Part shown: positions 22,861-36,200 of the stretch, piece by piece
How the letters are laid out: each line of letters opens with the position of its first letter
Position numbering within the stretch: position 1 is the stretch's first letter
IMG/VR virus record: IMGVR_UViG_3300031772_000131
Location: 1 to 36,200 of that record
Direction: 5' to 3' (one strand)
Length of the DNA: 36,200 nt
Origin: a virus
The notes under the pieces: generated by a model
Seen by the model: only the letters and a program-made list of their open reading frames with translations
Databases searched by the model: none
What the model was told of the DNA's origin: nothing
Program-made: the position numbers and the translations under genes

Positions 22861-22861
22861 G

Positions 22862-23077
22862 TCAGTCCACCCAACCCGACGGGCAACCGCACTTACTACG
22901 GCCCCGATTCTTCCACCCGATGTAGAGGTTGCCGATGCGCAGTCCCCAGCGAACCCGTCCCGGCTTGCGACTACTATCGGCACGTGCGAAGAATCCTCCG
23001 GGGCCAATCCTGCCGGTTCGGTACGTCACGAATATTCCGTCGCCGCCAGCGAACCTGCCGATCAGATCCTTGTGCAT
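22862..23077 (-). CDS. Small hypothetical protein
   Basis: 71 residues from the ATG at 23077 (TGATG junction). It is basic with glycine/aromatic patterns ([20 protein letters not shown]) ending CGCPSGWVD. Possibly a small beta protein. No family recognised. Confidence 0.62.
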
Positions 23078-23286
23078 CACTCCACCTCTTCCCAGTTCTT
23101 GCGATAGTGAATTTCGTAGTGCATGTCTTTCCCTTCAGCGTCTTTTAGCGGAGCGTATAGTAGTCGGCCGCGCTCCGCGTGCATCCATATGCGCTCGGCT
23201 CCCCAGTACGTCCAGAAGCGAGGGCCGCCAGTGGCGTAAGATCCGTCAGCATACGCTTCGACGATCTCGTAGCGTCGGAAAATCAT
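23077..23286 (-). CDS. Small hypothetical protein
   Basis: 69 residues from the ATG at 23286, coupled by TGATG on both sides. It is aromatic and polar (RRYEIVEAYADGSYATGG, RFWTYWGAERIWMHAE). The frame is open much farther upstream, but that region is antisense to the terminase small-subunit-like gene. Function unknown. Confidence 0.65.
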   Translation of the reverse strand: MIFRRYEIVEAYADGSYATGGPRFWTYWGAERIWMHAERGRLLYAPLKDAEGKDMHYEIHYRKNWEEVE

Positions 23287-23765
23287 CACTCCACCTCTTC
23301 CCCAAGCAAGTCTGCCCACATCTCGTCCACGCGACGAGTCGTCGTGTGATCGATCTTCATGTCTGCGACGCCCGCGCCGCGCCTCGCCATCTCGCTGCCA
23401 AACTGCATGAGCTCGCGGATGTCCTTCATCTTCAGCAGCGCGGGATTCTTGTACTTGAGCGCGGTGAGCCCCATGCGCAGCATCAGCATCCCTGCCGTGT
23501 ACTGCGCATGGAGCGCCTCCCCCTCGTCCATCTCCAGTATCGCAGCGAGCTCGGACACAGCCGCGTCGTACGGCGCAGCGCGCAGCGCCCACGAATGCTT
23601 CGTCGCGGTCGTGCGCACCATACTCACGGGGACGCCGCACCGCTTCGCAACGAGCTGCTCACTACGGCTCTCTCCGAGTTCGCAATACTTCGTGAACCAC
23701 GCGTACTCGTGGTTGGACTCGCCGCTCTGGCGGTCCCACGGGCGGATCGGCTCGAGCGCGCTCAA
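23286..23765 (-). CDS. Terminase small-subunit-like DNA-binding protein
   Basis: 159 residues, ATG at 23765. Residues 20-60 (YAWFTKYCELGESRSEQLVA, RCGVPVSMVRTTATKHSW) resemble the helix-turn-helix of terminase small subunits, and the rest is a long helical region with an acidic end, as in many TerS proteins. Small subunits recognise the packaging site and recruit TerL. It lies three genes before the large subunit on the same strand, which supports the call, but the family was not confirmed by any search. Confidence 0.7.
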   Translation of the reverse strand: MSALEPIRPWDRQSGESNHEYAWFTKYCELGESRSEQLVAKRCGVPVSMVRTTATKHSWALRAAPYDAAVSELAAILEMDEGEALHAQYTAGMLMLRMGLTALKYKNPALLKMKDIRELMQFGSEMARRGAGVADMKIDHTTTRRVDEMWADLLGEEVE

Positions 23766-24019
23766 TGCAGATCCCTCACGAGTTTGGACTGCGCGTCCGC
23801 TGCGGCGAGCATACCCTTCACGTCGCCCATCTCATCAGCTATCTCATACGCGGCTTGGAAGCGGTGCCATGCGATGACGAGAGGCCACGCGCCCTGGACC
23901 TCCATCGGTGATCGGTCGATGAGATCCTGCATCGTGGCAGCCGCAGCTTCATCGCCGTACTCGCGTGCGACCGCTGCGACACTGCCGTGCTTGATGAGCT
24001 GTGTTTCGCGCTCGTTCAT
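23762..24019 (-). CDS. Hypothetical helical protein
   Basis: 85 residues from the ATG at 24019, coupled by ATGA to the upstream and downstream genes. It is helical and acidic (VAAVAREYGDEAAAATMQDL, GDVKGMLAAADAQSKLVRDL). Function unknown; coupling to a terminase-like gene suggests a packaging accessory, but this is only context. Confidence 0.65.
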   Translation of the reverse strand: MNERETQLIKHGSVAAVAREYGDEAAAATMQDLIDRSPMEVQGAWPLVIAWHRFQAAYEIADEMGDVKGMLAAADAQSKLVRDLH

Positions 24020-24531
24020 CTGCTCTTGTCCACGACCCTCGTGCGCTCCCAGCTCTCGATCTCTTCTTCCTCGCCCGGCATGATCGAGACTGCGACGAAC
24101 TTCTTGATGTACTCGGCTTCCTCCGCTGGCGAGAGGTGGCCGGCCATGAACTTGTCGATCAGCGCGCGCGGCGGGCGCATCGTCGCCCAATGGCTGATCG
24201 CGCGCTCGTCGCTGATGCGCTTCCACATTCTGTAGTAGATGTGCGTCTGGATCTGCACGGGGCGCTGGTACTCGTAGGAGTCCACGCCTTCAACCAGCCC
24301 GAGCAGCGCCGCGGCCTCAAGGTCATCGAACTCGCACCTGCTCATGCTGGGGAGGCTGATCAGCTTGTTGACGATGCGGCCCGCGTACGGCATGCAGATC
24401 GTGATCGCCTCGTCGCGCTCGCGGTGCACGGACAGTCCGGCGCACATCGCCGCTGCGAGCGATGCATGCCCGCAGCACGCCTGGCTGATCAGCATCGTCG
24501 CGCGCTGGGAGTCGATCTGCTTACGGGCCAT
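24016..24531 (-). CDS. Sigma-70 region 2-like protein without region 4
   Basis: 171 residues from the ATG at 24531. A stretch of about 75 residues resembles sigma region 2, the part that binds RNA polymerase and the -10 element: YAGRIVNKLISLPSM, CEFDDLEAAALLGLVEGVDS and IQTHIYYRMWKRISDE. The remaining 65 residues are acidic and helical (EEAEYIKKFVAVSIMPGEEE) with no visible region 4 helix-turn-helix. It may be a specialised sigma, an anti-host transcription factor, or a decayed sigma. Overlaps the upstream gene by 11 bases. Confidence 0.72.
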   Translation of the reverse strand: MARKQIDSQRATMLISQACCGHASLAAAMCAGLSVHRERDEAITICMPYAGRIVNKLISLPSMSRCEFDDLEAAALLGLVEGVDSYEYQRPVQIQTHIYYRMWKRISDERAISHWATMRPPRALIDKFMAGHLSPAEEAEYIKKFVAVSIMPGEEEEIESWERTRVVDKSR

Positions 24532-24769
24532 CGGTTGCTACCCCGTACACCTTGCCATCGTACACCGCGCGCACTTCCTCGAGGTTGCCGCGGTGCGACT
24601 GAACGATGCGCTTCGCGTGGAGGAGCGCGGTGAGCGCGTCGTTGCGGTAGACGCGCTGTCCTTTGATCGTGCGATCAGTCGCAGCGTCGGCGAGCACGTC
24701 GAGCATCAGTGCGGTGCGCGAGCACTCCGCGATCTCCTCGTCGAGCTTCAATCGTGCGTGGTCGGCCAT
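24521..24769 (-). CDS. Small helical hypothetical protein
   Basis: 82 residues, ATG at 24769; overlaps neighbours at both ends (22 and 11 bases). Predicted mostly helix (LKLDEEIAECSRTALMLDVL) with a basic middle (IKGQRVYRNDALTALLHAKR). No family recognised; its neighbours suggest a regulatory setting. Confidence 0.62.
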   Translation of the reverse strand: MADHARLKLDEEIAECSRTALMLDVLADAATDRTIKGQRVYRNDALTALLHAKRIVQSHRGNLEEVRAVYDGKVYGVATDGP

Positions 24770-25065
24770 GCCACCATCGTATCCCGCTGGGCGCGTGCCA
24801 CTGCGGCGCGGCTATGACGGCTGCGGGGGATGTGCAGCACGAGCCACGACTCGATCTGCGTGCGCAGCCAGAGCTTGCGATTCGAGATGCGGCATACGGG
24901 AGCGGGCATCGGGCCGTAGACACGGTGCGCGCGGCGCCCGGTCGCATAACTGCGCAGCGTCGCGGCCTTGAGGAACGGTGCGAGCGCGTAGATATCGGTG
25001 AGCGATACCAGGTCGCCCGGATCGTAGGACTCTTCATGCCACTGCGGGATGGTCACGCATATCAT
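24748..25065 (-). CDS. Helix-turn-helix-like DNA-binding protein
   Basis: 105 residues from the ATG at 25065. The segment LVSLTDIYALAPFLKAATLR followed by RISNRKLWLRTQIESWL has the layout of a MerR/excisionase-type DNA-binding domain, with a basic C-terminus (RSRHSRAAVARAQR). No Shine-Dalgarno sequence is well placed. A GTG at 25056 would give a protein starting TIPQWHEESYDP, and it lies seven bases from a TATCAT box, so leaderless expression from there is possible. A 14-15 bp perfect inverted repeat sits just upstream. Regulator is inferred. Confidence 0.6.
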   Translation of the reverse strand: MICVTIPQWHEESYDPGDLVSLTDIYALAPFLKAATLRSYATGRRAHRVYGPMPAPVCRISNRKLWLRTQIESWLVLHIPRSRHSRAAVARAQRDTMVAWPTTHD

Positions 25066-25092
25066 GATACCGGCTCGATCCCTCAGTGCGAA
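25064..25092 (-). promoter_or_regulatory. Candidate promoter, TTCGCA - 17 - TATCAT
   Basis: On the - strand TTCGCA (25087-25092) and TATCAT (25064-25069) are 17 bases apart, matching the sigma-70 consensus at 4 and 5 of 6 positions. The spacer lies inside the 3' arm of the hairpin. Transcription would start about seven bases on, next to the GTG at 25056. This would be the only local promoter for the terminase-end block. Confidence 0.4.
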
Positions 25093-25106
25093 GGGATCGA
25101 GCCGGT
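25069..25106. repeat. Perfect inverted repeat, 15-bp arms, 8-base loop
   Basis: ACCGGCTCGATCCC (25069-25082) pairs perfectly with GGGATCGAGCCGGT (25093-25106), with one more T-A pair inside, leaving a loop of eight bases. No run of T follows on either strand, so a classic terminator is not evident. It lies in the 76-base gap between the SSB-like and DNA-binding genes and overlaps the candidate promoter spacer, so it may be an operator, a T-less terminator, or a structured 5' leader that hides a start site. Confidence 0.8.
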
Positions 25107-25141
25107 GGTGGTTCACTTACGGGTCTTGAGAGTGTAGCAGA

Positions 25142-26062
25142 TCAGAACGGAATCTCGTCTTCTGCCGGCTCCTCTGGTCCTCCGACGACCGCAGCGAATG
25201 CGGCGTCGAGCTCAGCTTCCTTCGAGGAAGGCTCCGGATTGGCCACCTGCGGATCAGGAGTGCGCACCTGCGTCACCTCCGCTGCCTCGAACGCCTCGTC
25301 CCCCGAGTCGGCGACCGCTGCAAACGGATCATTTTGCACGAGTGCCTTGACGCTGCGGCTGTACTCGAGCATCTGCGCAGCGTGCTGCGGCTCGAGCTTC
25401 TCCACGACGCGGAACGTCGCCGCGCTGTACTCCTTGTTCGCGGCGTTCTTCTCCTTCTTCAGGCCGATACCCACGACCACGTTCGTGAACCGCTTGTACT
25501 TGCCCACGACGGTCAGGCCGCTGAACAGCTTCCACGCCTTGAGGGACGCAGCCGAGAGGCTGACCTGTACCGGGAAGACGGCGCCGTCGCCCAGGTAGAG
25601 GAACACCTCGCGGTAGTTGTTCGTCGCCTTGCCGTCGCCCGAGCCACCGAGCAGATGCGCGGACCCGAACTGATTGTACGGGCACGTGAGCAGGTTCGTG
25701 TCGGGACGCGGCAGGCCGCGCTCCTTGCACTTCTCGTACGTCGCTGCGGGGATGACCTGCACCTTGCCATCGATGCTCCACATGTCGGGCTTGCCGGAGT
25801 CGCCAGCCTGCCGCGAGTCGTAGGAATCGAGGTAGGTGCGGCTCGACTCGTGGTGCGCGACGACGATGCCGATGAGCTCCTTCACGGAGTCGGGGTTCTC
25901 GGGGTCGTCTCCGGCAACCTCCCATGCGGTGCTGCCACCGCTCGGGGTCTTGATGCGGGCGATCGGCGGAGCCTCGTCGCCCATCTCCTCTCGCCACACC
26001 GACGCGAAGTCGGAGGCGTCTTCGAGCTCGAACTTCTCTGCTACTACCAGTTCTGTAGACAT
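25142..26062 (-). CDS. Candidate single-stranded DNA-binding protein with acidic DEIPF tail
   Basis: 306 residues from the ATG at 26062, which has AAAGGGAG upstream. The tail is acidic and ends EEPAEDEIPF, the pattern used by bacterial and phage SSBs (DDDIPF) to recruit partners. The middle contains KVQVIPAATYEKC and GNNYREVFLYLGDGA-like beta stretches and FPVQVSLSAASLKAWKLFSG, which could be an OB-type region, though no OB fold was proved. Residues 270-300 look disordered. If correct it coats ssDNA in replication/recombination. The alternative is an unknown conserved phage replication protein. Confidence 0.6.
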   Translation of the reverse strand: MSTELVVAEKFELEDASDFASVWREEMGDEAPPIARIKTPSGGSTAWEVAGDDPENPDSVKELIGIVVAHHESSRTYLDSYDSRQAGDSGKPDMWSIDGKVQVIPAATYEKCKERGLPRPDTNLLTCPYNQFGSAHLLGGSGDGKATNNYREVFLYLGDGAVFPVQVSLSAASLKAWKLFSGLTVVGKYKRFTNVVVGIGLKKEKNAANKEYSAATFRVVEKLEPQHAAQMLEYSRSVKALVQNDPFAAVADSGDEAFEAAEVTQVRTPDPQVANPEPSSKEAELDAAFAAVVGGPEEPAEDEIPF

Positions 26063-26083
26063 GCTGCATTGCTCCCTTTGAGA

Positions 26084-26100
26084 CGCTGCCGTGTGCAGCG
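26084..26100. repeat. Small hairpin upstream of the SSB-like gene
   Basis: CGCTGC (26084-26089) and GCAGCG (26095-26100) form a 6-bp stem with a 5-base loop in the 80-base gap between the SSB-like start (26062) and the upstream stop (26143). It might stabilise or attenuate the leader. Short GC hairpins also occur by chance in DNA of this composition. Confidence 0.3.
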
Positions 26101-26142
26101 GTTGAGGAGAGCATGAAGATGTGGTCGGACGCAGGTGTTGCG

Positions 26143-26421
26143 CTACCGCTGCGCCAACCGCCAGAGCATCCGCGCAGCGACGCACTCGGGACACGACTCG
26201 TCCCAGCCTTCGAGGCTACACGAGTGGTCGAGGCAGGTTCGGCTCATCGCTTCGACGAGTTCATCGAATGTGGGGACGCCCGCCTGGGGCGCGAGGGTGA
26301 CGCCTGTCGCGAGCTGCTGGCGCAGGTCGGCGTGCGCGCCTTCTGGCAGGTCGCGGTAGAGAGCGCGCCACGAGTGGACGGGGAGGCGCACCTCGAACAT
26401 GCGCAGGTCGTCGAGGGTCAT
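26143..26421 (-). CDS. Small hypothetical protein with Cys pair
   Basis: 92 residues from the ATG at 26421 (ATGA junction). It has an N-terminal helical region (MTLDDLRMFEVRLPVHSWRAL) and a C-terminal cysteine pattern (CLDHSCSLEGW and CPECVAARML), a possible zinc site. First of a run of such small proteins. Function unknown. Confidence 0.65.
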   Translation of the reverse strand: MTLDDLRMFEVRLPVHSWRALYRDLPEGAHADLRQQLATGVTLAPQAGVPTFDELVEAMSRTCLDHSCSLEGWDESCPECVAARMLWRLAQR

Positions 26422-26669
26422 GGGGTCGCACGGTCCTCGCCGCGCTCGACGCCTAGTGCCAACTGGTGCCCCCATGCGTTCATCGCGCGAAGCCGAGGAC
26501 CGGCTACGCGATCCTCCAGCATCGCGCTCTTCGCGATAGCGTCTTCGGCTCGTTCGTGTAGCCATGCCGCGATGCTTGCGCGATCATCGGCCTTGCCGGC
26601 CTCGAAGCACTCGCATCCGTAACCGTCATTGCATGAAGGACACGGTGGACCTGACGCGATGTCAGTCAT
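26418..26669 (-). CDS. Small zinc-ribbon-like protein
   Basis: 83 residues from the ATG at 26669 (TGATG junction). CPSCNDGYGCECFEAG near the N-terminus is a Cys knuckle (C-x-x-C, C-x-C) of the type used to bind zinc. The rest is helical (AAWLHERAEDAIAKSAML). Probably binds metal; partner or nucleic acid target unknown. Confidence 0.66.
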   Translation of the reverse strand: MTDIASGPPCPSCNDGYGCECFEAGKADDRASIAAWLHERAEDAIAKSAMLEDRVAGPRLRAMNAWGHQLALGVERGEDRATP

Positions 26670-27043
26670 CAGAACAACTCCTCCGTGTCGCACTCCACCA
26701 CGAACTGCTTGTCGGTCGCCTCGTGCACGATCCCGTCCTGCTCGAGGTCGAGTTCAATGTGATCCGCTTGTGATTCGCGTATGACGAGCATCACATCCGG
26801 CGCCTCGCCGCGCTCCCAACTCATCGCGCCAGCGTCCCGATCCGCGTAGTGGACGTCATCCTCCTGCGCCTGCACGAGGATCTCGACGTTCTCGTCGCGG
26901 CCCGTGAGCGCGCCCGCCGTGCGGCCCTCGTCGAGCATGTGGAGCAGGGATGCGAGGTTGCGGCGGGAGAGCGTGAGGACGATGCCTGTCAACTCGTCCT
27001 CGGCGTCCGGGTGGCGCGGTGCATACTGTAAAGATACTCTCAT
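26669..27043 (-). CDS. Acidic hypothetical protein
   Basis: 124 residues from the ATG at 27043. Acidic throughout (HPDAEDELTGIVLTLSRRN, LVQAQEDDVHYADRD) with a beta-like end (KQFVVECDTEELF). Coupled on both sides by overlaps. Small acidic phage proteins often mimic DNA or inhibit host enzymes, but nothing specific shows that here. Confidence 0.65.
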   Translation of the reverse strand: MRVSLQYAPRHPDAEDELTGIVLTLSRRNLASLLHMLDEGRTAGALTGRDENVEILVQAQEDDVHYADRDAGAMSWERGEAPDVMLVIRESQADHIELDLEQDGIVHEATDKQFVVECDTEELF

Positions 27044-27381
27044 GATGACTCCTTCAGATTGTTGAGCGCGGTCGTGGCCGTCTCGTGGAACCACCAGCCG
27101 TTATCACGAGCCGTCCCCGCAGCGGCGATCAACTTGAGCGCGCAGATGAGCATGCGTCGCTCTTGGCGCAAGTATTCGATGCTCTCCGTCACGTCGATGT
27201 AGTCCTCCTCGCCGGCTACGTCCTGGTAGTAGCGGGGGGCATGGTGCTCCTGCAGGTCGCCTTGCTGTCCCTTTCCATGGCAGGCCGGGCAGTCGTCGGC
27301 ACCTTCGGCACCCTGCCAGCGGTGAGCGCACACGGGACATTCCAGATTCCATGCCTGCTGCCGTTGTTCATGGTCAGACAT
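27040..27381 (-). CDS. Zinc-ribbon protein
   Basis: 113 residues, ATG at 27381. LECPVCAHRWQGAEGADDC then CPACHGKG form a CPxC...CPxC zinc ribbon (rubredoxin-like) near residues 14-36. The C-terminal half is helical (YLRQERRMLICALKLIAAAG). The rest of the gene train carries several such proteins. Probably binds DNA, RNA or protein; function unknown. Confidence 0.7.
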   Translation of the reverse strand: MSDHEQRQQAWNLECPVCAHRWQGAEGADDCPACHGKGQQGDLQEHHAPRYYQDVAGEEDYIDVTESIEYLRQERRMLICALKLIAAAGTARDNGWWFHETATTALNNLKESS

Positions 27382-27850
27382 CGGGCATGCCTTTCATCTC
27401 GCGGTAGTCGCGGTGGGCGGTATCGAGTTCCCGCCAGATTGACGTGGCCAGATCCGCCGCCCTGCCGGGGTAGCCGTGCGCCCGTCGCAGCTCAAGCGAA
27501 TCGGCCAACCGCTTGAGCCAGTACAGGTTGCGCGACACCGCCTCGGGAAGCTCGCTGTCGGCCGCTCGCTGGTGCCTGCCAATGACCGCGACCTCCCCCA
27601 CGCAGTCCTGATCGCCGTCAACGGCCCCGTAGATCACCTCACAGAACGATTCGTCCGGCTCTTGGAAGCTGCCATCCGCGTGGCTGTAGCCCAGCGCGAG
27701 GCAAACGAGCAAAGCGGCATCTTCTCGTGCCTGCAACTGGGAGGGCAGGAGCCGGTGCTCGTCGCAGCGGTCGCCCGTGGTCGGCGGCGTCCAGCATTGG
27801 CCGACGACGCAGCGGCTCGATGCACGCTCGCGTGATTCGGTGTCGGTCAT
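27374..27850 (-). CDS. Hypothetical protein with N-terminal Cys/His site
   Basis: 158 residues from the ATG at 27850, which overlaps the upstream stop (ATGA). The N-terminus has a Cys/His arrangement (RCVVGQCWTPPTTGDRCDEH) that could hold zinc. The remainder is helical (QAREDAALLVCLALGYSHAD, LYWLKRLADSLELRRAHGY). Function unknown. Confidence 0.68.
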   Translation of the reverse strand: MTDTESRERASSRCVVGQCWTPPTTGDRCDEHRLLPSQLQAREDAALLVCLALGYSHADGSFQEPDESFCEVIYGAVDGDQDCVGEVAVIGRHQRAADSELPEAVSRNLYWLKRLADSLELRRAHGYPGRAADLATSIWRELDTAHRDYREMKGMPDV

Positions 27851-28239
27851 CGGTTCGCTCCTACCGTGTCGAGGATGCGCATGCAGTGGTTCGGGTTCAG
27901 GTCGCTGCCCTCGTCCTCGAATCGGTCGAACAGGATGCGCAACTCGCGGTCGATGCGCGACTGTTCGGATCGCACTGCCATGTTGTGCGCCTCCATCGTG
28001 TGGACGATCACCGCCTCCCGGCACATGGGATGCGCGATCCACTCGCCAAGTCGCGGGGCGTGAGTGAGCGGGTCGCCGCAGATCGCGCACCTTGCTTCGA
28101 CGGTCGGCTCATGCCGCGAAACGTCGCTGTGGCACGAACACGCGCATCCGATCGAAGTCCACGGACAGTCTGGGCCGCAGTTCCGCAGGTGAGCCCGCTC
28201 ACCGAACCGTCGCTGCTGGATTTGGTCAGGCGTCGTCAT
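27847..28239 (-). CDS. Zinc-ribbon protein with SRHEPTVE motif
   Basis: 130 residues, ATG at 28239. Two cysteine/histidine groups: CGPDCPWTSIGCACSCH and, after SRHEPTVEAR, CAICGDP with a later His/Cys pair (HPMC). The motif SRHEPTVE and a 24-base DNA repeat behind it are shared with the next gene upstream, so the two genes are paralogous there. The C-terminal half is helical and acidic. Possibly nucleic-acid binding; function unknown. Confidence 0.68.
   Translation of the reverse strand: MTTPDQIQQRRFGERAHLRNCGPDCPWTSIGCACSCHSDVSRHEPTVEARCAICGDPLTHAPRLGEWIAHPMCREAVIVHTMEAHNMAVRSEQSRIDRELRILFDRFEDEGSDLNPNHCMRILDTVGANR
28096..28119. repeat. 24-base direct repeat, copy 1
   Basis: Perfect 24-base match to 28601-28624. 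It encodes the SRHEPTVE stretch (read on the - strand) in the 130-residue zinc-ribbon protein. Near-identity at DNA level in two adjacent genes indicates a recent duplication or gene conversion. Confidence 0.85.
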
Positions 28240-28819
28240 CGGTGGCCTTTCGGTAGTGGTCGATCATGTCTACGAACGCATCGCAGGCCCCGGCATCATC
28301 GAAACGACCATCCGCGTCCTGTGTCTCGGCGAACCGGATGGCCGCTTCTACTACGGCGAGCATGCGGTCCCGCTCGGCTGCCAGTTGGCGGTAGTTCAGG
28401 TCCATGACTTCGACCGCTCGGAACACGTCGCGAGCCCATCGCGCACACTGGTCGCCGACGCGCCGCACGTCGGGTGCTCGACTGCCGGGCCGGATGATGC
28501 TGCCGCACTCGTATGGATACGAGCCGTCGCATACGTTCTGTCCGGTGGTGATGCGCGGCGCTCCGCACAGGTGGCACGGGCTTGGCTCCTGCAACCGGGA
28601 TTCGACGGTCGGCTCATGCCGCGAGTTGTGCTCCCCGACGGAACATCCGGGATGATGGTCGTCGATTGGCTGCCAGCACTCCATGCACTCATGCTGCGAT
28701 CGGTGCTGCTCGCCGCAGTACCCTTTCGCGTGGGCCTTCGATACGCCTTCGGGGTCGTTCGTGCATCCGGGATAGCGACAGGACACGAACTGGGACTGGT
28801 GTGCTGGTTCGCGTGTCAT
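28226..28819 (-). CDS. Zinc-binding protein with SRHEPTVE motif
   Basis: 197 residues from the ATG at 28819. The first 80 residues have many Cys and His residues (CRYPGCTNDPEG, YCGEQHRSQHECMECW, HPGCSVGEHN), then SRHEPTVESR, then CHLCGAPRIT and CGSII, so two or three metal sites may exist. The rest is a long helix (AERDRMLAVVEAAIRFAETQ). It shares a 24-base repeat with the adjacent gene and overlaps it by 14 bases. No family recognised. Confidence 0.68.
   Translation of the reverse strand: MTREPAHQSQFVSCRYPGCTNDPEGVSKAHAKGYCGEQHRSQHECMECWQPIDDHHPGCSVGEHNSRHEPTVESRLQEPSPCHLCGAPRITTGQNVCDGSYPYECGSIIRPGSRAPDVRRVGDQCARWARDVFRAVEVMDLNYRQLAAERDRMLAVVEAAIRFAETQDADGRFDDAGACDAFVDMIDHYRKATDDDA
28601..28624. 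repeat. 24-base direct repeat, copy 2
   Basis: Perfect match to 28096-28119, encoding the SRHEPTVE stretch in the 197-residue protein. Confidence 0.85.
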
Positions 28820-28821
28820 GG

Positions 28822-29121
28822 TCAAGCCCCCGTCATCTGGTCGACGTAGCAGAGGCCCGGCCCGCAGTCGCCGCAGCACGTGTCGTGAAACTCGAGCAGC
28901 TCGACAGGCTCCTGTACCTGAACGTGTGTGAGCGCGATGCATGCCGCCTCGCCGACAACCCACACGACTGCCGTGTGCCCGCCGAGAATCCTCTCGCGCT
29001 CGGCGTAGAGCTGCTGCATCGACTCGACGCGCGCCTGCAGCCACGCGATCTGCTCCTCCGGCGAGCTCCACTGACGCCGCTGCCCGGATGGGATGCTGAT
29101 CCATGACAGGCCATCACTCAC
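28822..29121 (-). CDS. Hypothetical protein with C-terminal Cys cluster
   Basis: 99 residues, GTG at 29121 overlapping the preceding stop (GTGA). A central helix (EEQIAWLQARVESMQQLYAE) looks like coiled coil, followed by a hydrophobic stretch (VVWVVGEAACIALTHVQV) and CCGDCGPGLC, a possible metal-binding or disulfide cluster. Function unknown. Confidence 0.62.
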   Translation of the reverse strand: MSDGLSWISIPSGQRRQWSSPEEQIAWLQARVESMQQLYAERERILGGHTAVVWVVGEAACIALTHVQVQEPVELLEFHDTCCGDCGPGLCYVDQMTGA

Positions 29122-29363
29122 TTCGCTATCTCGCTGCGACGCTGCAGAAGAACGTTCACGATTGCCTCGTTCAAGTCCTCTTTGATTCTCACGAGCCGAT
29201 TCGCCTCGTCGCGCAGGCGACGAATGCGATGCGCGTCAGAGACGCGCGTATCGCCGACGCACAGTTCGAGGAGGCGCGAGCTCGCGAGCGACGCGATGCC
29301 CTTCGACTTCTCGATATCCTTCGCGATCGATTCGAGCTTCTTGTTCGTGATGCGCGGCGTCAT
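29118..29363 (-). CDS. Small basic helical protein
   Basis: 81 residues, ATG at 29363, coupled by ATGA upstream. Predicted helical and basic (KKLESIAKDIEKSKGIASLA, RIRRLRDEANRLVRIKED) with coiled-coil character. May bind DNA or partner proteins; no family recognised. Confidence 0.66.
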   Translation of the reverse strand: MTPRITNKKLESIAKDIEKSKGIASLASSRLLELCVGDTRVSDAHRIRRLRDEANRLVRIKEDLNEAIVNVLLQRRSEIAK

Positions 29364-29692
29364 GACGACTCCCTTTCAAGGACGCGCCGCGCAGCCGCGC
29401 GCAGTTCGGATCGCTCCACGTACGCCTCCGCCGTGTAGCCGATCGGAGTAGATGTTCCGTCCGGCAGGGTGACGTAGTACGAGTCGCCCTGGTCGCTCTT
29501 GATGAGCGCGTCGATCTCGGCGTCCGTGAGCGGCACTGGTTCACGCCTGTTCGCGAGGTCTGTATCGCGGAGCGCCTCGATGATCTTCGCACGGATCATC
29601 CGCGCGTTATCACTATCGTCTTCGGTCAGGATGTCCTGGATGCAGTAGAGCGCCTCACGCAGAGTCCAGTAGTCGCTATAGCCGTCTCCCAT
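29360..29692 (-). CDS. Acidic hypothetical protein
   Basis: 110 residues, ATG at 29692, one base after the ParB-like gene stop. Acidic N-terminal half (CIQDILTEDDSDNARMIRAK) and a C-terminal helix (ERSELRAAARRVLERESS). Function unknown. Confidence 0.65.
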   Translation of the reverse strand: MGDGYSDYWTLREALYCIQDILTEDDSDNARMIRAKIIEALRDTDLANRREPVPLTDAEIDALIKSDQGDSYYVTLPDGTSTPIGYTAEAYVERSELRAAARRVLERESS

Positions 29693-29693
29693 G

Positions 29694-30503
29694 TCACGCT
29701 CCCGTCACGATGGTTGGAAACTCTTCCGGCGCCGAGCCGCCAGCCCTGAATGTGAGCACGCGGATCGACCCCCCGTTCATGTACGCGTTCCACGCCTTCA
29801 CAACGCACGCGTGCATGATGATCGGGAGCGGCTTGTGCGTCGAGATCGAGATGTTCTCGATGTAGCGACGCAGCGTGTGGATCGGATCGCCTTCGGAGAG
29901 CTCGAGGCCGGACGCGAGCTTCGCAACGAACAGATCCCAGTCGTGATTGTTCTTCGCGTAGATGCGGATCGCGGAGAGCGGCGTGCGAATCTTCTTGATG
30001 ATCGGATTGTTGTTCGCCCCGACCATGTTCACGCAGTCCGTGATCTCGGGATTCTGCTCGAGCCAGTTCATCATCTCGCTGTTCGTCGCCTGGTCGAAAC
30101 AGACCTTGCGCTCAGGATCCTCGTAGAGCACGCACCAACGGATCGCCGAAGCGGTCAGGTTCGTGTTCTTGAATCCCTGCAACTTGAGGACGTCGCTGAA
30201 AGTCCGCTTCGCGCCGGTATCCATCGCCAGCATCGATGCCTTGCTGAGGCCGCGGATCACGATCATCTTCTGGGGCATGCCGGACTCGATGATCGCGGAG
30301 AGGCGGTGCTGTCCGTCGAGTAGCGTGCCGTCGCCGTTGAAGCGGATCGGGTCGCCGGATTCGAGCCAGTTGCCAGCCTTCATGTCGCGGGCGTAGCGCT
30401 TCACCGCGTTCTTGCGGATCGTGCGGTTGCTGTCGTTGCCCTTCAGGAACGTAGCTGCCTTCGCGGGTGTGACCTTCTCGATTTTCATCTGTATCGCGCT
30501 CAT
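29694..30503 (-). CDS. ParB-like nuclease-domain protein
   Basis: 269 residues from the ATG at 30503. The ParB/sulfiredoxin-like core is clear: RTIRKNAVKRYARDMKAGNW, then GTLLDGQHRLSAIIESG. Conserved phage proteins of this kind are widespread, and some ParB-like domains bind DNA or hydrolyse CTP/ATP. The C-terminal half is helical, with a cysteine-containing patch and a basic segment (NNNPIIKKIRTPLSAIRIYA). Role here unknown; DNA partition, replication or nuclease control are options. Overlaps the upstream zinc protein by four bases (ATGA). Confidence 0.85.
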   Translation of the reverse strand: MSAIQMKIEKVTPAKAATFLKGNDSNRTIRKNAVKRYARDMKAGNWLESGDPIRFNGDGTLLDGQHRLSAIIESGMPQKMIVIRGLSKASMLAMDTGAKRTFSDVLKLQGFKNTNLTASAIRWCVLYEDPERKVCFDQATNSEMMNWLEQNPEITDCVNMVGANNNPIIKKIRTPLSAIRIYAKNNHDWDLFVAKLASGLELSEGDPIHTLRRYIENISISTHKPLPIIMHACVVKAWNAYMNGGSIRVLTFRAGGSAPEEFPTIVTGA

Positions 30504-30700
30504 GATGCGTGGTCCTTGGCTTGGGGGCTGTTGGTTTGGAAACGCTCTGGAGCGATCGTCATGTCGCCATCGCACTCGTCGCAGAGGATCGGATTCTTCA
30601 CCTGTGTGACGAGGAGACTACAGGACGGGCACCACCACGCGGTTGCTTTCGCGTCACGGTCGACGCCGAGTCCCTGGCGTGTCTGGTAGGAGAAGTTCAT
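30500..30700 (-). CDS. Small zinc-ribbon protein
   Basis: 66 residues, ATG at 30700, coupled by overlaps on both sides. AWWCPSCSLLV and ILCDECDGDM form a C-x-x-C pair set typical of a zinc ribbon. Acidic/polar end. Could be a small nucleic-acid- or protein-binding factor; no family. Confidence 0.68.
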   Translation of the reverse strand: MNFSYQTRQGLGVDRDAKATAWWCPSCSLLVTQVKNPILCDECDGDMTIAPERFQTNSPQAKDHAS

Positions 30701-31011
30701 GCGTTGGCTTCCTGCTTCTCGGCAGCTTTTATCGCATTGCCGAGATCGAAGGCGCGCTGCAGTCCAGCGTGGCCGGCGATGTCATCCCTGTCTACCCATT
30801 CGAGCTGCCAGCCCTGCGGATAATGCGCATGGTACTTGTCGTGCTTCCAATCAGAATCGCCGAAACCAAGATCGTGACGAAAGAACGCTGGACTCGAGCA
30901 GACGTGCCGTGCGAGCACATGGCCATCCTCGGCGATTGCCATGACCCCCCACCACTGGGGGCTCCCGCCGTTGAGGAATCCGTAGATGACTGGCTTGCTT
31001 GATTCGCTCAT
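30697..31011 (-). CDS. Conserved-type hypothetical protein
   Basis: 104 residues from the ATG at 31011 (TGATG junction). Starts SESSKPVIYGFLNGGSPQWW, with an aromatic core (RHDLGFGDSDWKHDKYHAHY, GWQLEWVDRD). Mixed alpha/beta. No family named with confidence. Confidence 0.66.
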   Translation of the reverse strand: MSESSKPVIYGFLNGGSPQWWGVMAIAEDGHVLARHVCSSPAFFRHDLGFGDSDWKHDKYHAHYPQGWQLEWVDRDDIAGHAGLQRAFDLGNAIKAAEKQEANA

Positions 31012-31124
31012 CAGTATCCCGACTTTCGTGCTGGGCAGTACAGGCAGTAGTAGCCTCTGTACGGACTCGGCTTCCAGTAGTGCTGACCCGGCTCGCAGCC
31101 GAACAGCCCGAGAATCCACGTCAT
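31011..31124 (-). CDS. 37-residue Cys/aromatic peptide
   Basis: ATG at 31124 lies in a TGATG junction with the upstream stop, and its own stop overlaps the next ATG in the same manner. The product (TWILGLFGCEPG, YYCLYCPARKSGY) has three cysteines and eight aromatic residues. Coupling on both sides strongly supports translation. It may bind metal with a partner. Function unknown. Confidence 0.6.
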   Translation of the reverse strand: MTWILGLFGCEPGQHYWKPSPYRGYYCLYCPARKSGY

Positions 31125-31675
31125 CACTTCCCCGCCTTCCGAATGCCGACCTCGCCGACGCGCGTGACCTGCAGCAGCGCATCCCAGCCTTCAGGCAGCT
31201 TCGACTCGTCGTACTCCTCGCTGCCGTCCTGGTTCTCGGTCTTCATCAGCTCGCGCACCGCGGCGCCGAAGCTCTGCGCGTTGACCTTCGCCTTCGCTAG
31301 GTCGCCCAGTCCGTTATCGGAGAGCCACTCGATGAGATCCTCGTCGTCGTAGCCGACGGTCGATCGAGCGTACACCGACTGCTTGAGGTAGAGCACCTGT
31401 CCCTTTCGATTGAACGACTGCATCTCGTTGTCGATCATGTGCTCGTACTGCACCTCGTTCAGATCCTCGAGCCGCTCGTTCACGGCTTCCGTCGCGAGCT
31501 TGAGCGCGTCCCTGATCTGGCGCAGGTTCAGGATCTCGTCCGCCGTCTTGAAGACGTCGGTGAGGTCAGCCTCGAGGTTGAGTTGCTCGATGAGAGACAG
31601 CGCGAGCAGGCCGCTCCACGCGTGGTCGCGCTGCAGGCGGGGCAGGTTGTCTTGAAGCGTCGATACCTTGCTCAT
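31124..31675 (-). CDS. Conserved-type phage protein, unknown
   Basis: 183 residues from the ATG at 31675. Helical N-terminal half (LTDVFKTADEILNLRQIRDAL, EAVNERLEDLNEVQYEHMID) and a mixed C-terminal half with WLSDNGLGDLAKAKVNAQSF and IRKAGK at the end. The layout resembles a family of phage proteins of unknown function. No enzyme motif was seen. Coupled to the RHH gene upstream by ATGA. Confidence 0.68.
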   Translation of the reverse strand: MSKVSTLQDNLPRLQRDHAWSGLLALSLIEQLNLEADLTDVFKTADEILNLRQIRDALKLATEAVNERLEDLNEVQYEHMIDNEMQSFNRKGQVLYLKQSVYARSTVGYDDEDLIEWLSDNGLGDLAKAKVNAQSFGAAVRELMKTENQDGSEEYDESKLPEGWDALLQVTRVGEVGIRKAGK

Positions 31676-31851
31676 GCTGCATCCTTCGGTTCGGGTGTCC
31701 ACTCGCCCGTGCGGCGATGAATGTAGAGGTCGATCGCCTGGCGCACGGTCCAGCCTATGCTGGCGTCCTGCGACTCCGCGATGCGCTGCAGGTGCGCGTA
31801 TTGCTCCTCGCGCACGCGGATGTGGAGGGCGCGGTGGTAGGGGCCGTTCAT
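31672..31851 (-). CDS. Ribbon-helix-helix DNA-binding protein
   Basis: 59 residues, ATG at 31851 overlapping the upstream stop (ATGA). HRALHIRVREEQYAHLQRIA followed by WTVRQAIDLYIHRR is the beta-strand, helix, helix pattern of Arc/CopG/MetJ-type repressors. Such proteins bind operator DNA as dimers. It is the second gene of a unit that begins behind a promoter containing a palindrome with a repeated half-site (32127-32152), so autorepression there is a reasonable inference. Confidence 0.72.
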   Translation of the reverse strand: MNGPYHRALHIRVREEQYAHLQRIAESQDASIGWTVRQAIDLYIHRRTGEWTPEPKDAA

Positions 31852-32126
31852 GCTTCGCTGCCGATCGCCAGCAGGAGTGGCGCGAGGTCACGCACGAGGT
31901 CGCAGTCTGGGTATCGGCGATACTGTTCGAGCACAGCCTCGGCAAGTTCCGGCGCGAGAGCGATCAGCTCGGCGCTCGGGCCGCTTGACCACGAGCGATG
32001 CCTCGCGATTAGCACTCTGTCGTCGGCATCGTCGATCCCCCGCAGGGCACCGCCCTCGCTCCACTCCCACGGGCCTTGCATCCACGGCCGCTGCTCCTGT
32101 ACACTGTTCGCCTGTTCGTTGCTCAT
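31848..32126 (-). CDS. Hypothetical protein, first gene behind the 32.1 kb promoter
   Basis: 92 residues, ATG at 32126. Polar start (SNEQANSVQEQRPWMQGPWE), then IDDADDRVLIARHRSW and a helical end (AELIALAPELAEAVLEQYRR). No ribosome-binding site precedes the ATG; the TACAGT box ends six bases upstream, which fits a leaderless message. Function unknown. It heads the downstream gene train. Confidence 0.7.
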   Translation of the reverse strand: MSNEQANSVQEQRPWMQGPWEWSEGGALRGIDDADDRVLIARHRSWSSGPSAELIALAPELAEAVLEQYRRYPDCDLVRDLAPLLLAIGSEA

Positions 32127-32152
32127 GGCTACACTGTAGCAAGAGTGGCTAC
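32127..32152. promoter_or_regulatory. Candidate operator: palindrome and repeated half-site
   Basis: GCTAC-ACT-GTAGC (32128-32140) is a palindrome that includes the TACAGT box read on the - strand. The half-site GGCTAC occurs again 20 bases away (32127-32132 and 32147-32152), on the same face of the helix. The arrangement fits binding of a dimeric repressor over the promoter. Confidence 0.5.
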
Positions 32153-32161
32153 GCGGGGCAA
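32133..32161 (-). promoter_or_regulatory. Candidate sigma-70-type promoter with start at the ATG
   Basis: On the - strand TTGCCC (32156-32161), 17 bases, then TACAGT (32133-32138). The ATG of the next gene starts seven bases after the TACAGT box, so RNA would begin at or next to the start codon. No Shine-Dalgarno sequence lies between. TGC before TACAGT adds an extended -10 element. It is the best promoter candidate found in the leftward train and sits in a 57-base gap after the helicase stop. Confidence 0.6.
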
Positions 32162-32183
32162 GGGCACGGACGGGGGTTGGCCG

Positions 32184-33680
32184 CTATGGGCCAGCCAAGA
32201 ATCTTCTCCACCCTCCCGATCCGATCTCCTCAGCGACGCTGCGCTTCTCCATGAGCGTCTCGTACACGTGCTCGTCTACTGTTCCTCGTGCGAGCAGGTG
32301 CTCGTGTATCACCTTCTTCGTCTGCCCGATGCGATGTAGCCGCGCACGAGCCTGTTCGAACTCGGCGCCGCTGAATCCAGTCGAGTAGAAGATCGACACG
32401 CACGCGGCGTGCAGCGTGATGCCGAGCCCGGCGCTCGCGATCTGCGCTACGAAGATGCGAGCATCATCATCCGTCTGGAAGCGGTGCACCATTTCAGCAC
32501 GATCCTTCGCGGCGATGTCGCCTGCGATGCACGGCTGCGGGATCGGCTTCTTCGGCGTGCCGACGAGCGATGCAGCGAGCTTGCGAATCTCCTCGCCCTC
32601 GCGCGTGAAGCGATGGAACACGACGACCTTGTTGCCCGCGTCGAGGTGCGTCTCCAGCCGCTCCTTCAGCATCTTGCGCTTCGCGTCGCTGATCTCGACG
32701 AGCGCGCCGGACTGCTCGTTCGTCACAAAGCCTCCGCTGATCTGTGAGAGGCGCAGCAGGCGCGTGAGCACATGGTCGCCGAGGATCTCCCCGTACTCCC
32801 CAAACTCGTCCTCGAGCAGCGCGATCGACTCCTTCGCGAGCTGGTCGTAGACCTTCTGCGCCTTCGGCTCGAGGTCTAAGGGGAGTACCACGTCTACCTG
32901 GTCGGGCAGGTCGAGCGCGTCCTCCTTCGTGACGCGATGCGCGCGCGAGAACACGATCCTTTCGAGCTCCGGGAGCATGAACTGATTGATCGTGACCTTC
33001 GGAAATGTCTGTCCAGCCTTCGTCTTGAGCTCGATCGTGTGCGCGTACTTCGCGGTGAAGTTCACATGACTCGTACCCAGCATCGTCTCGTCGAGGAAAC
33101 GGTACTGGCCATACAGGTCGAGGGCGGACTCGGGCGTCGGCGTGCCCGTCAGGATCGCGCGATACTTCGCTGTCTTGCCGATGCGGTGCATTGCGCGAGA
33201 CTGCTTCGATCCTGGCGCCTTGATGCGCTGCGACTCGTCGACCACGATCATGTCGAAGCGCGCAGCGCGCAGCACGTGCTCCATCCGCCACGACTTCTCC
33301 AGATTCACGACAGCCACGAGCGGCCCCTCGCGATGCTCGAGGAGCGCGCGCTGTAGTTTTGCCTCGCATTGAGCCGACGAACCAGTGAGCGCCACGACGT
33401 TCGCGTTGGGCAGATGCTTGCCGTCCTTCTCCCATGCTCCGATGACCGACGTGGGACACACGACGAGCATCGTCTCCGCGTCGCCGCGTTGATGCAGGAT
33501 ACCGAATGCCCCGAGCGTCGAGAGCGTCTTTCCGCAGCCGGGATCGTGAAATACGGCGAACACGCCGCTGCGCTCGAACTCGCTGAGCATGAGCGCGACC
33601 GCGGTCGACTGGTGCCCGTACGGCGTGATGCCGAGCAGTTCCTTGAGGCAGTGCCGCGCGCGCGAGAAGGTGGGAAACAT
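32184..33680 (-). CDS. SNF2-type DNA helicase/translocase
   Basis: 498 residues, ATG at 33680. Superfamily 2 motifs are in order: Q-motif YGHQSTAV (residue 21), Walker A DPGCGKT (46-52), LVVCPTSVIGAWEKD (Ia region), VVDESQRIKAPGS (DESQ, 147-159), AILTGTPTP (III), then in the second lobe VVVFHRFTREGEEIR (IV), IFVAQIASAGLGITLH (V) and ARARLHRIGQTKK (VI). SNF2-like enzymes move along DNA with ATP and remodel or clear DNA. In phages they may assist replication, recombination or packaging. The gene stands alone between the small zinc protein and the promoter at 32.1 kb. Confidence 0.92.
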   Translation of the reverse strand: MFPTFSRARHCLKELLGITPYGHQSTAVALMLSEFERSGVFAVFHDPGCGKTLSTLGAFGILHQRGDAETMLVVCPTSVIGAWEKDGKHLPNANVVALTGSSAQCEAKLQRALLEHREGPLVAVVNLEKSWRMEHVLRAARFDMIVVDESQRIKAPGSKQSRAMHRIGKTAKYRAILTGTPTPESALDLYGQYRFLDETMLGTSHVNFTAKYAHTIELKTKAGQTFPKVTINQFMLPELERIVFSRAHRVTKEDALDLPDQVDVVLPLDLEPKAQKVYDQLAKESIALLEDEFGEYGEILGDHVLTRLLRLSQISGGFVTNEQSGALVEISDAKRKMLKERLETHLDAGNKVVVFHRFTREGEEIRKLAASLVGTPKKPIPQPCIAGDIAAKDRAEMVHRFQTDDDARIFVAQIASAGLGITLHAACVSIFYSTGFSGAEFEQARARLHRIGQTKKVIHEHLLARGTVDEHVYETLMEKRSVAEEIGSGGWRRFLAGP

Positions 33681-33708
33681 CGTAGGAGCATCGCAGCGGG
33701 GCCGGACG

Positions 33709-34026
33709 CTACGCCCGCGTCAAGTTTTCCTTGCCGCAAACTTGACAGCGGCGCATCGTCCATGCCCTGAGCCATCGACTGTGACCAAGCCCCGGCCACT
33801 TGTCGAACGGCTGCCAGTCGTGCTCCTTGCCGACCTTGCCGCGGCACCACCGCTTCGTATCCTTGCGGCGCCGCTTGCCTCCATGCATCGGAGCTCCATC
33901 GATCGCGCTGTCCTCGATCGCGGCGTCGTGGATCGCATGCTTCTTCTCGCGTGCTTCGACCTTGCGGGGGCGGCGACCCCACTCACTGCCGCCCTTGTCG
34001 AAGTGACGATTCGCGTTGCTACCCAT
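33709..34026 (-). CDS. Small zinc-binding protein
   Basis: 105 residues, ATG at 34026. Basic N-terminal half (REKKHAIHDAAIEDSAIDG, GGKRRRKDTKRW) and a C-terminal Cys/His arrangement (WCRGKVGKEHDWQPFD, RRCQVCGKEN) that may bind zinc. Similar small actinophage proteins have the KWCxGKxGxEH pattern, function unknown. Confidence 0.7.
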   Translation of the reverse strand: MGSNANRHFDKGGSEWGRRPRKVEAREKKHAIHDAAIEDSAIDGAPMHGGKRRRKDTKRWCRGKVGKEHDWQPFDKWPGLGHSRWLRAWTMRRCQVCGKENLTRA

Positions 34027-34035
34027 GCGCGCAGC

Positions 34036-34245
34036 CTACCTGTTGCGCCGCCGCGCAGCCTTCTGCGCCTTCGTCTTCGCGCGCAGCTTCGCATGGTTGA
34101 CGCGCGCCTGCGCAGCCGCGGTGCCGAAGCCTGCGGAGCGAGCGACGCCTCGATCGTGGCTCGACATGCCGGCCTGGGAGACGGCGCGCTCGAGCGAGCC
34201 GCCCTTGAGCTTGGTATCGAGGAGGTGCTGCGTGATCGGATTCAT
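34036..34245 (-). CDS. Small basic protein, first gene of the leftward train
   Basis: 69 residues from the ATG at 34245. C-terminal half is strongly basic (ARVNHAKLRAKTKAQKAARR), suggesting nucleic acid binding. No ribosome-binding site is present; CATGAT lies six bases before the ATG, a possible -10 and leaderless start. Function unknown. Confidence 0.62.
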   Translation of the reverse strand: MNPITQHLLDTKLKGGSLERAVSQAGMSSHDRGVARSAGFGTAAAQARVNHAKLRAKTKAQKAARRRNR

Positions 34246-34358
34246 GTCTGCATCATGACGAGACACGCGGACGCAGTTTGTGCTCCCCTGCCTGACGAAT
34301 CTCCATCCAACCATCTGCCAAGACGGGTGGCTCGTCAGCACAGCGCTATGGAGGCTTC

Positions 34359-34502
34359 ATGCACCTGGCAGTGCTTTCCGGAGACGCCTCGCAGGTTCGC
34401 GAGACAATCGTACCAGACGCACAGGCGCCCCCATCCGAAGACGGGGGCGCTGTCCCCACACAGCTATCCGGTGGGCCGACGCCGGCTGCACGTGCAGCAT
34501 AG
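34359..34502 (+). CDS. Possible 47-residue protein in the control region
   Basis: ATG at 34359 is preceded by GGAGG with a four-base gap, which is a good ribosome-binding site. The product starts HLAVLSGDASQVRETIV and is Pro/Ala/Gly rich and acidic. A GC hairpin lies inside. The codon pattern is plausible but too short to judge, and it could be chance. Confidence 0.3.
   Translation: MHLAVLSGDASQVRETIVPDAQAPPSEDGGAVPTQLSGGPTPAARAA
34425..34450. repeat. GC-rich hairpin, 8-bp arms
   Basis: GCGCCCCC (34425-34432), 10-base loop, GGGGGCGC (34443-34450). No T run follows, so a standard terminator is not shown. It could act as a terminator for a short upstream transcript or as an operator. Confidence 0.5.
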
Positions 34503-34526
34503 CATGTAGGTGCGTCCGCAACCATC

Positions 34527-34545
34527 CATAGCATGCTGCGCTATG
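34527..34545. promoter_or_regulatory. Inverted repeat CATAGC...GCTATG at the sigma start
   Basis: CATAGC (34527-34532) and GCTATG (34540-34545) form an inverted repeat with a 7-base centre, covering a TAGCAT box (34529-34534) and the ATG at 34543. A regulator bound here would block initiation. No Shine-Dalgarno sequence precedes the ATG, so a leaderless start is possible. Confidence 0.4.
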
Positions 34546-35262
34546 AACACGATCATGGCGAAGCGATCAATCAGCAACAGCGTTGATGGGGGCGGCATCG
34601 CCGCGCTCGTCAAGCAGTCGAAGGTGGTACCGCGCGAGAAGCTCATCGCGCTCACCGTCGCCGCGCAGGAGGGTGACGAGGATGCCATGCGGCAGGTCAT
34701 CGACGCCTGTAGCCGCCTCGTGCTCTCGATCTCAAGCAGGCTGTGGATGCAGTGGTCGATCCAGATCCCCGAGTCCGCATCGTTCGACGACATCTTCCAG
34801 GCCGGCCTCGAGGGACTGTACGTCGCGGTCATGAAGTTCGACGAGTCCCGCGGCAACACGCTCACCACCGTCGCGACGCCATGGATTCACACGCGCGCGC
34901 AGCGAACGATCTACACGCTCATCGGCATCTGCCACATCCCCGAGCGCCTGATCACCGGCCACGACGAGGACATCAGCCATCTGCTGCGCAGGTGCACGGC
35001 CAGCCTCGACATGTCGGTGCTCGACGACGCCGAGAGCATGGTGCACCGGCTCATGGGATCCGAGGATGACCCGCAGTGCGGCGCCGATGACATCCTGCGC
35101 GCGCTCGCAGCCGCGGACGAGCGACTGCCCGCGATGATCACGCTCTCGAGCGAAGGCTACACCGATGGCGAGATCGGCGAGATGTTCGGCGTGACGTACG
35201 AGCGGATCCGACAGATGCGCGGCAAGGCCGCGCGCGCGCTCGAAGCTGCCGGCCTCGTCTAG
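34543..35262 (+). CDS. Sigma-70-type RNA polymerase sigma factor
   Basis: 239 residues from the ATG at 34543 (a second ATG at 34555). Region 2: FDDIFQAGLEGLYVAVMKFD and TTVATPWIHTRAQRTIYTL. Region 4: ITLSSEGYTDGEIGEMFGVT and YERIRQMRGKAARALEAAG, a helix-turn-helix that would read the -35 element. A degenerate region between (residues 135-190) replaces region 3. The protein would direct host RNA polymerase to phage promoters. It has an acidic linker. It is the only + strand gene in the right half apart from the edges. Convergent with the next gene, sharing the stop codon region (35259-35262). Confidence 0.85.
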   Translation: MNTIMAKRSISNSVDGGGIAALVKQSKVVPREKLIALTVAAQEGDEDAMRQVIDACSRLVLSISSRLWMQWSIQIPESASFDDIFQAGLEGLYVAVMKFDESRGNTLTTVATPWIHTRAQRTIYTLIGICHIPERLITGHDEDISHLLRRCTASLDMSVLDDAESMVHRLMGSEDDPQCGADDILRALAAADERLPAMITLSSEGYTDGEIGEMFGVTYERIRQMRGKAARALEAAGLV

Positions 35263-35690
35263 TAGTCGTCCTCCGACATCGTGAGCATGTCAACTGACTC
35301 GAGCTCCAGCAGGTCGCGCTTCATGCCCGAGCGGTCCCACTCGTAGAGCGCGGCGACCATCGCCAGGTGATGCTGGTCGAGCTTGCCGTAGTTCACCACG
35401 AAACATGCCGGGCACCTGCCCGCGAGCACGCCCATGTTCTCGCCCGAGCTCGGATCGATGTACGACTCCTCGAGCCAGCAGCACAGCGGCGCGTGCCCGC
35501 ATCCCTCGCAGACGACGATCTGCCGCGCGCGCAGGATGCACTCCTCGATCATCGCCGCCTCGCCTCCAGCCGGCGCCGCGCCATCCTCACGCTCCTGCTC
35601 GAGATGCGCCCAGGACTTGCCGACCTCGAACATGAAGTACGCCCCAAGGATGCACGCGAGGCCGAGTCCCAGCCCCCCCGCGTCAATCAT
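35259..35690 (-). CDS. Membrane-anchored zinc-ribbon-like protein
   Basis: 143 residues, ATG at 35690. A hydrophobic N-terminal segment (LGLGLACILGAYFMFEVG) likely anchors it in the membrane. The body contains CEGCGHAPLCCWLEES and GRCPACFVVNYGK, two CxxC-type pairs for zinc. Ends acidic (TMSEDDY). It overlaps the sigma gene end by four bases, tail to tail. Function unknown. Confidence 0.72.
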   Translation of the reverse strand: MIDAGGLGLGLACILGAYFMFEVGKSWAHLEQEREDGAAPAGGEAAMIEECILRARQIVVCEGCGHAPLCCWLEESYIDPSSGENMGVLAGRCPACFVVNYGKLDQHHLAMVAALYEWDRSGMKRDLLELESVDMLTMSEDDY

Positions 35691-36141
35691 CCGGCGCCCC
35701 GATCATGAACCACTCGGGCGCATACATGCGAAGCATGAGAAGGATGCGATAGATGCGAACATGCTCGCGCTTCAAATCGAGCAGGAGGTCCGCATCAATA
35801 TCCGGGTTCTGGATCTGCTTGCCGACCTCGACGCACTTGCCCCAGAGCCGCGCGGGCGCCCGATCACCAAGCTCGCCCACCTTCGCCCAGCGCGGATCAT
35901 CCAGCGGCGGCGGGTCAGCGACCTCGATGCCGTCAGCCTCGAACGCCTCACGCAGCGCTACGAGTTCGAAGCGCGCCTCATTCGCGATCTGCGCGCGCGC
36001 CTCCGCCTCGCCTGGATCGAGCTGGTACATCCCATCGCTCCACCTGAACGTCGCCACTTCTTCCATCTCCTCGTCATCTGCTTGTGATTCGTCTGTGAAA
36101 TCGGTGGGACATGGATGTTCACTACCGCTGTGAATATCCAC
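35683..36141 (-). CDS. Acidic hypothetical protein (5' end uncertain)
   Basis: 152 residues with the GTG at 36141. The frame is open to the window edge, so the gene might start beyond it. A GTG at 36057 with GAGGAG nine bases upstream is another start choice and would give ATFRWSDGMYQLDPGEAEAR as its beginning. The body is helical (IANEARFELVALREAFEADG, LLLDLKREHVRIYRILLMLR). Overlaps the next gene by eight bases. Function unknown. Confidence 0.62.
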   Translation of the reverse strand: MDIHSGSEHPCPTDFTDESQADDEEMEEVATFRWSDGMYQLDPGEAEARAQIANEARFELVALREAFEADGIEVADPPPLDDPRWAKVGELGDRAPARLWGKCVEVGKQIQNPDIDADLLLDLKREHVRIYRILLMLRMYAPEWFMIGAPDD

Positions 36142-36164
36142 TGAATCGTGAATATCGGGAGGAA

Positions 36165-36200
36165 ATGAGTACCCAGACGTATCTTCTTCGGGAGGATTCG
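36165..36200 (+). CDS. Start of a + strand gene running off the window
   Basis: ATG at 36165 is preceded by GGGAGGAA, a strong ribosome-binding site. Only about 12 codons are visible (STQTYLLREDS), open to the right edge. Identity cannot be judged. Confidence 0.5.
   Translation, partial: MSTQTYLLREDS

Follow-up and report, generated by a model that had tools for sequence, protein, structure and literature searches.

A 36.2-kb virus record encodes a small phage sigma factor and a second protein with weak likeness to sigma domain 2 and no detectable region 4

Virus record IMGVR_UViG_3300031772_000131, which was analysed over its whole length (36,200 bases, 63% G+C) and is referred to below as the window, encodes two sigma-like proteins: a 239-residue protein that is, by its sequence, an ordinary small phage sigma factor, and a 171-residue protein that is very probably a descendant of sigma domain 2. 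Sigma factors are the proteins that tell RNA polymerase where to start, and we know of few region-4-less sigma proteins that direct transcription, the model being T4 gp55. From sequence likeness and by analogy, we tentatively favour reading the 171-residue protein as a gp55-like specificity factor that would recognize the -10 element only, require an upstream partner and serve later transcription. The database cautions that the 36.2-kb record is possibly a fragment of the virus.

Two sigma-like genes in one virus record

The original prediction had assigned sigma regions 2 and 4 to a plus-strand gene and a region 2-like part without region 4 to a minus-strand gene, and hence two sigma-like proteins to one phage, one of them lacking the part that reads the -35 element. 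As possible roles it offered a transcription cascade or, for the short protein, competition for core RNA polymerase. Profile searches bear out the region assignments. In a six-frame search of the record, Sigma70 region 2 is matched at two places only, in the 239-residue (E 1.1e-8) and the 171-residue (E 9.5e-5) genes, and Sigma70_r4 is matched in the former alone, with nothing in or beside the latter; the Sigma70_r4_2 and sigma region 3 profiles find no match in the six frames.

34543-35262, plus strand: 239-residue sigma factor with regions 2 and 4 (phrog_351, Sigma70_r2, Sigma70_r4)
35152-35241, plus strand: sole region 4 match in the record (six-frame Sigma70_r4 search)
24016-24531, minus strand: 171-residue sigma-domain-2 protein without region 4 (Sigma70_r2, TIGR02937)
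24205-24342, minus strand: Sigma70 region 2 match within the 171-residue gene (six-frame search)

Both genes are open at these coordinates, with a possible alternative in-frame GTG start at 34510 that would add 11 residues to the 239-residue protein, and their G+C contents by codon position are alike (0.58/0.45/0.90 and 0.62/0.45/0.90). Comparison of the two proteins by BLASTP is not significant (E 1.9).

The longer protein matches phrog_351 (E 1e-26, residues 28-234), a family annotated as 'RNA polymerase sigma factor', Sigma70_r2 with 28.3 bits (E 1.5e-6; Pfam cut-off 24) and Sigma70_r4 with a sub-threshold 20.3 bits (E 4e-4; cut-off 24.1). Searched against PDB sequences, it yields 81 distinct matches at E ≤1, the first at E 2.2e-12, and the best 60 of the 81 are all sigma factors. 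Within the 201-bp gap that separates this gene from the divergent minus-strand genes lies a strong G+C-rich hairpin (34424-34451) with no T run downstream; the surrounding segment, 34410-34480, folds with a z of -1.94 relative to shuffled sequences, 11 of 200 of which fold equally well.

Likeness of the 171-residue protein to sigma region 2

Each of the libraries searched with the 171-residue protein returned sigma families, and no unrelated family was found. The single Pfam match is Sigma70_r2 (residues 64-109, E 0.0081), whose 16.4 bits lie below the cut-off of 24; the single PHROG match is a weak one to phrog_351 (E 0.13); and the six NCBIfam matches are led by TIGR02937 (residues 38-137, E 0.0015) and include the FliA/WhiG family (residues 53-109, E 0.0019), so that eight of eight matches are to sigma families. 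Among ten decoys of the protein, one reversed and nine shuffled, three had any NCBIfam match (best E 0.022) and none matched a sigma family. When the protein was compared with E. coli FliA, the real score was beaten by one of 5000 shuffles, and a search of PDB sequences gave nine matches, seven to sigma factors and two to angiotensinogen, at a non-significant best E of 0.15. Judged by these searches, the likeness to region 2 exceeds chance, yet is weak.

The low score has to be read against that of T4 gp55, a proven specificity factor whose sigma likeness is confined to domain 2 (PMC2988020): with 13.1 bits (E 0.087) against the same Sigma70_r2 model, gp55 falls below both the cut-off and the 171-residue protein, and ranks behind two unrelated families. 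A weak score is thus compatible with a working sigma. It is also what would be expected of a helical protein whose resemblance to region 2 is accidental, as are the one shuffle in 5000 that scored higher against FliA, the best PDB-sequence E of 0.15 and the lack of orthologues; we nevertheless hold such a coincidence to be most improbable, since three libraries point to sigma families only, the ten decoys point to none and gp55 itself scores lower. A home-made profile built from 80 pattern-selected sigma factors, which found the 171-residue protein at E 0.0012 among the frames of the window, was set aside because its sequences had been chosen with the protein's own motif.

Anatomy and predicted fold

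Residues 64-117 of the 171-residue protein align without gaps to E. coli FliA (sigma-28), which in addition carries regions 3 and 4, and we read this stretch as regions 2.2 to 2.4. In a MAFFT alignment with viral sigma factors, unlike in the gap-free FliA match, the helix of region 2.3 carries a two-residue insertion, and the aromatic residues of sigma-70 region 2.3 are partly kept. The gp55 residues reported to touch the clamp helices of the beta-prime subunit are E70, D74 and E77 (PMC7892883); in a five-sequence alignment with columns read by eye, the 171-residue protein has D, A and L at these positions, thus keeping an acid at one of the three (D70, at the E70 position), and FliA shows the same pattern with D, A and I. 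Overall identity to gp55 in this alignment is 10%.

The partly lost contact residues and the low profile score would suit a decayed sigma domain whose role is to titrate an anti-sigma factor or other regulator, much as the sigma-like domain of PhyR does not initiate transcription but titrates NepR (PMC8103513). We regard such mimicry as very unlikely: a FliA-like 2.4 helix has been kept, and no anti-sigma gene occurs among the families found in the scanned part of the window.

Structure prediction with AlphaFold2 from the single sequence was poor (pLDDT 47.7), and the Foldseek results for that model are meaningless. A second model, computed from an alignment that included 21 viral sigma stretches, reaches a pLDDT of 80-87 at residues 41-110. 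By title and chain, the best 50 structures listed by Foldseek for this model are sigma chains, with a best E of 0.012 and none below 0.001, and VIA-align 2 places the N-terminal domain of SigE first (Z 12.5, rmsd 2.3, 78 aligned residues), with the program's own caution that helical bundles may reach such Z values. As sigma sequences were fed into its alignment, the model indicates compatibility with a sigma-2 fold and is not proof of it. The tail (residues 110-171) gave the impression by eye of a sigma region 3.2 finger, which we do not claim.

Gene neighbourhood and proposed role

On the minus strand, the 171-residue gene is part of an overlapping gene chain leading from a 122-residue protein through the 82-, 171- and 85-residue proteins to the terminase small subunit, with successive overlaps of 22, 11, 4 and 4 bp.

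24748-25116, minus strand: 122-residue protein, phrog_597 'DNA binding protein' (E 2.9e-5)
24521-24769, minus strand: 82-residue protein without assigned family, overlapping the start of the 171-residue gene by 11 bp
23762-24019, minus strand: 85-residue protein without assigned family, overlapping the end of the 171-residue gene by 4 bp (ATGA)
23286-23765, minus strand: terminase small subunit (phrog_6299, E 1.5e-13)
21047-22597, minus strand: terminase large subunit (phrog_979, E 6.7e-16)
18715-19893, minus strand: DNA methyltransferase (phrog_67, E 4.8e-54)
14053-15660, minus strand: DNA methyltransferase (phrog_363, E 2.4e-65)
8-3574, plus strand: tape-measure gene

A PHROG search with the longer frame of the 85-residue gene (23762-24226) gave no match. 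The scanned genes of the record also include a minus-strand DNA helicase gene, and in that scanned part neither a portal or capsid gene nor any T4-type gene was seen. The serial overlaps into the terminase small subunit suggest that the chain is expressed together with the packaging genes. In other phages, late-gene activators such as Xpf of PBSX may adjoin the terminase genes.

We propose, conditionally, the following scheme. The 171-residue protein would bind the host RNA polymerase at the clamp helices of its beta-prime subunit, and would read and open a -10-like element with no contact to a -35 element. Upstream grip would be provided by a partner, most simply a small protein of its own gene chain, with the phrog_597 protein as a possible DNA-binding candidate, or else a protein encoded outside the record. 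The host polymerase could thereby be redirected to later genes, after the 239-residue sigma or a host sigma had driven the earlier ones.

For the gp55-like reading count, on the sequence side, the eight of eight sigma matches set against none of ten decoys, a score above that of gp55 and a gp55-like layout; the gap-free FliA alignment, the alignment-based model and the gene chain into the terminase small subunit count for it as well. Against it count the sub-cut-off region 2 score, the lack of an orthologue, the model's dependence on a sigma alignment, the insertion in region 2.3, the retention of only one of three clamp-contact acids, the partly kept aromatics, the lack of a clamp of two families and the lack of a shared promoter motif.

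Two other functions have to be weighed at this point. According to PMC2988020, sigma binds the core mainly through its domain 2, and the same paper mentions unpublished evidence of effective competition between a gp55-gp33 fusion and sigma-70; together with the missing region 4, this would be in keeping with a competitor that binds the beta-prime clamp helices, displaces host sigma and shuts off the host while initiating nothing itself. A pure blocker, however, would need no FliA likeness through region 2.4, and the gene's place in the chain leading to the terminase small subunit may count against it as well; we consider this function distinctly unlikely. The phrog_597 DNA-binding protein gene two genes upstream could, alternatively, supply one subunit of a split sigma of which the 171-residue protein is the other. 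Precedents are the SigO-RsoA pair, in which SigO carries sigma-4 and RsoA sigma-2 as separate proteins (PMC8103513, PMC10028694; in a table of PMC10141391 the two domain assignments are reversed), and the homologues of GafA that are split in some Rhizobiales (PMC6363796). The record, possibly a fragment, holds no second region 4 match to play the SigO part, though a gp33-like partner is not recognizable by sequence as described in PMC2988020 and would escape such a search; a split sigma of this kind is, in our estimate, a rather improbable arrangement.

Sequence signals in the DNA give the gp55-like reading no promoter to point to: 8-mers upstream of 18 genes, a partly hand-made list with the + ORF 4950-5999 left out, do not recur beyond what is found in random stretches, and a promoter and terminator scan of 22500-36200 shows no excess over shuffled sequences.

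Comparison with known systems

The kind of factor proposed here is already known, with T4 gp55, gp28 and gp34 of SPO1 and SigO-RsoA as precedents; the variant, in which region 4 is missing and neither a clamp nor a T4-type gene is found among the scanned genes, appears to be new in the collections searched. As described in PMC2988020, gp55 is 185 residues long, with regions 2.1-2.4 spanning positions 44-123; it is regarded with gp33 as a split sigma, and on its own supports basal, accurate initiation. The 171-residue protein resembles it in length, in the placement of its sigma part (38-137), in a tail of about 55-60 residues, in having a domain 2, here a sub-threshold match, without region 4, and in scoring weakly on Pfam. 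It differs from the T4 system in that the gp45-slide_C and DNA_pol3_beta profiles of the sliding clamp find no match in this possibly fragmentary record.

To Bacillus subtilis SigO-RsoA the likeness is one of description, a sigma-2 function residing on a protein that lacks region 4; the sigma-4 partner present there makes the difference. Phage SPO1, a 132.6-kb Bacillus phage and in that respect different, likewise has more than one sigma-type factor, since gp28 and gp34 are described as serving middle and late genes (PMC9429907); on profiles, SPO1 gp2.21 matches region 2 and, below threshold, region 4. GafA, a phage-derived protein that activates the Rhodobacter gene transfer agent, is also likened by description through its sigma-like domain (PMC6363796), but is a single protein in which a DnaA-like DNA-binding domain precedes that part.

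A stronger version of the proposal, in which a phage with no kinship to T4 evolved a sigma devoid of region 4 that works without a clamp, takes its upstream grip from proteins of the chain and gives this small phage a cascade of two sigmas, is in our view unlikely. If the gp55-like reading is true, it would provide a second independent case from which to learn how little of sigma suffices for promoter-specific initiation and what can stand in for the -35 contact, and a small phage would be able to run its own sigma cascade.

Search for relatives and linked genes

No close relative of the 171-residue protein was found in the collections searched, where it stands as an orphan. A tblastn search of 50,697 phage records gave one match, at E 9, which was discarded; peptide patterns retrieved no relative from viral contigs, and none was found in genome contigs. 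Loci linked to the terminase, 80 viral (among at least 599 stretches) and eight phage, hold no relative either (best phmmer E 2). A DNA pattern of the protein's region 2 matched 83 stretches, and all 80 loci read (L096-L175) show a sigma region 2 by eye, none being an orthologue; as the pattern itself is sigma-like, the support that this lends is weak. A pattern of a longer stretch matched one viral and 13 genome stretches, and none of the 14, all of which were read, is a sigma.

Another gene of the window was followed in the same way. The protein encoded at 25142-26194 belongs to phrog_23155 (E 2e-36; function unassigned), and none of the 80 loci kept, out of 107 linked to this family, holds a relative of the 171-residue protein (best E 0.19). 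The candidate at that E, a 90-residue ORF with the look of a helix-turn-helix protein, was dismissed by eye. A tblastn match to the window's helicase is present in 71 of 80 loci with a phrog_23155 relative, which indicates that these genes frequently go together. Full sigma-like genes are present on two phage contigs that have both (L207:3471-4049 and L236:3049-3702, with region 2 at E 6.4e-7 and 2.4e-7, respectively), so that sigma genes do occur in phages with phrog_23155.

Two further proteins of the window were assigned to families. That at 31124-31945 matches DUF7307, 'Pam3 gp33-like protein' (E 6.4e-20), and that at 29694-30575 belongs to phrog_5931 (E 2.2e-71), relatives of which are present in 90 phage records, many with actinobacterial hosts and a few annotated as ParB-like.
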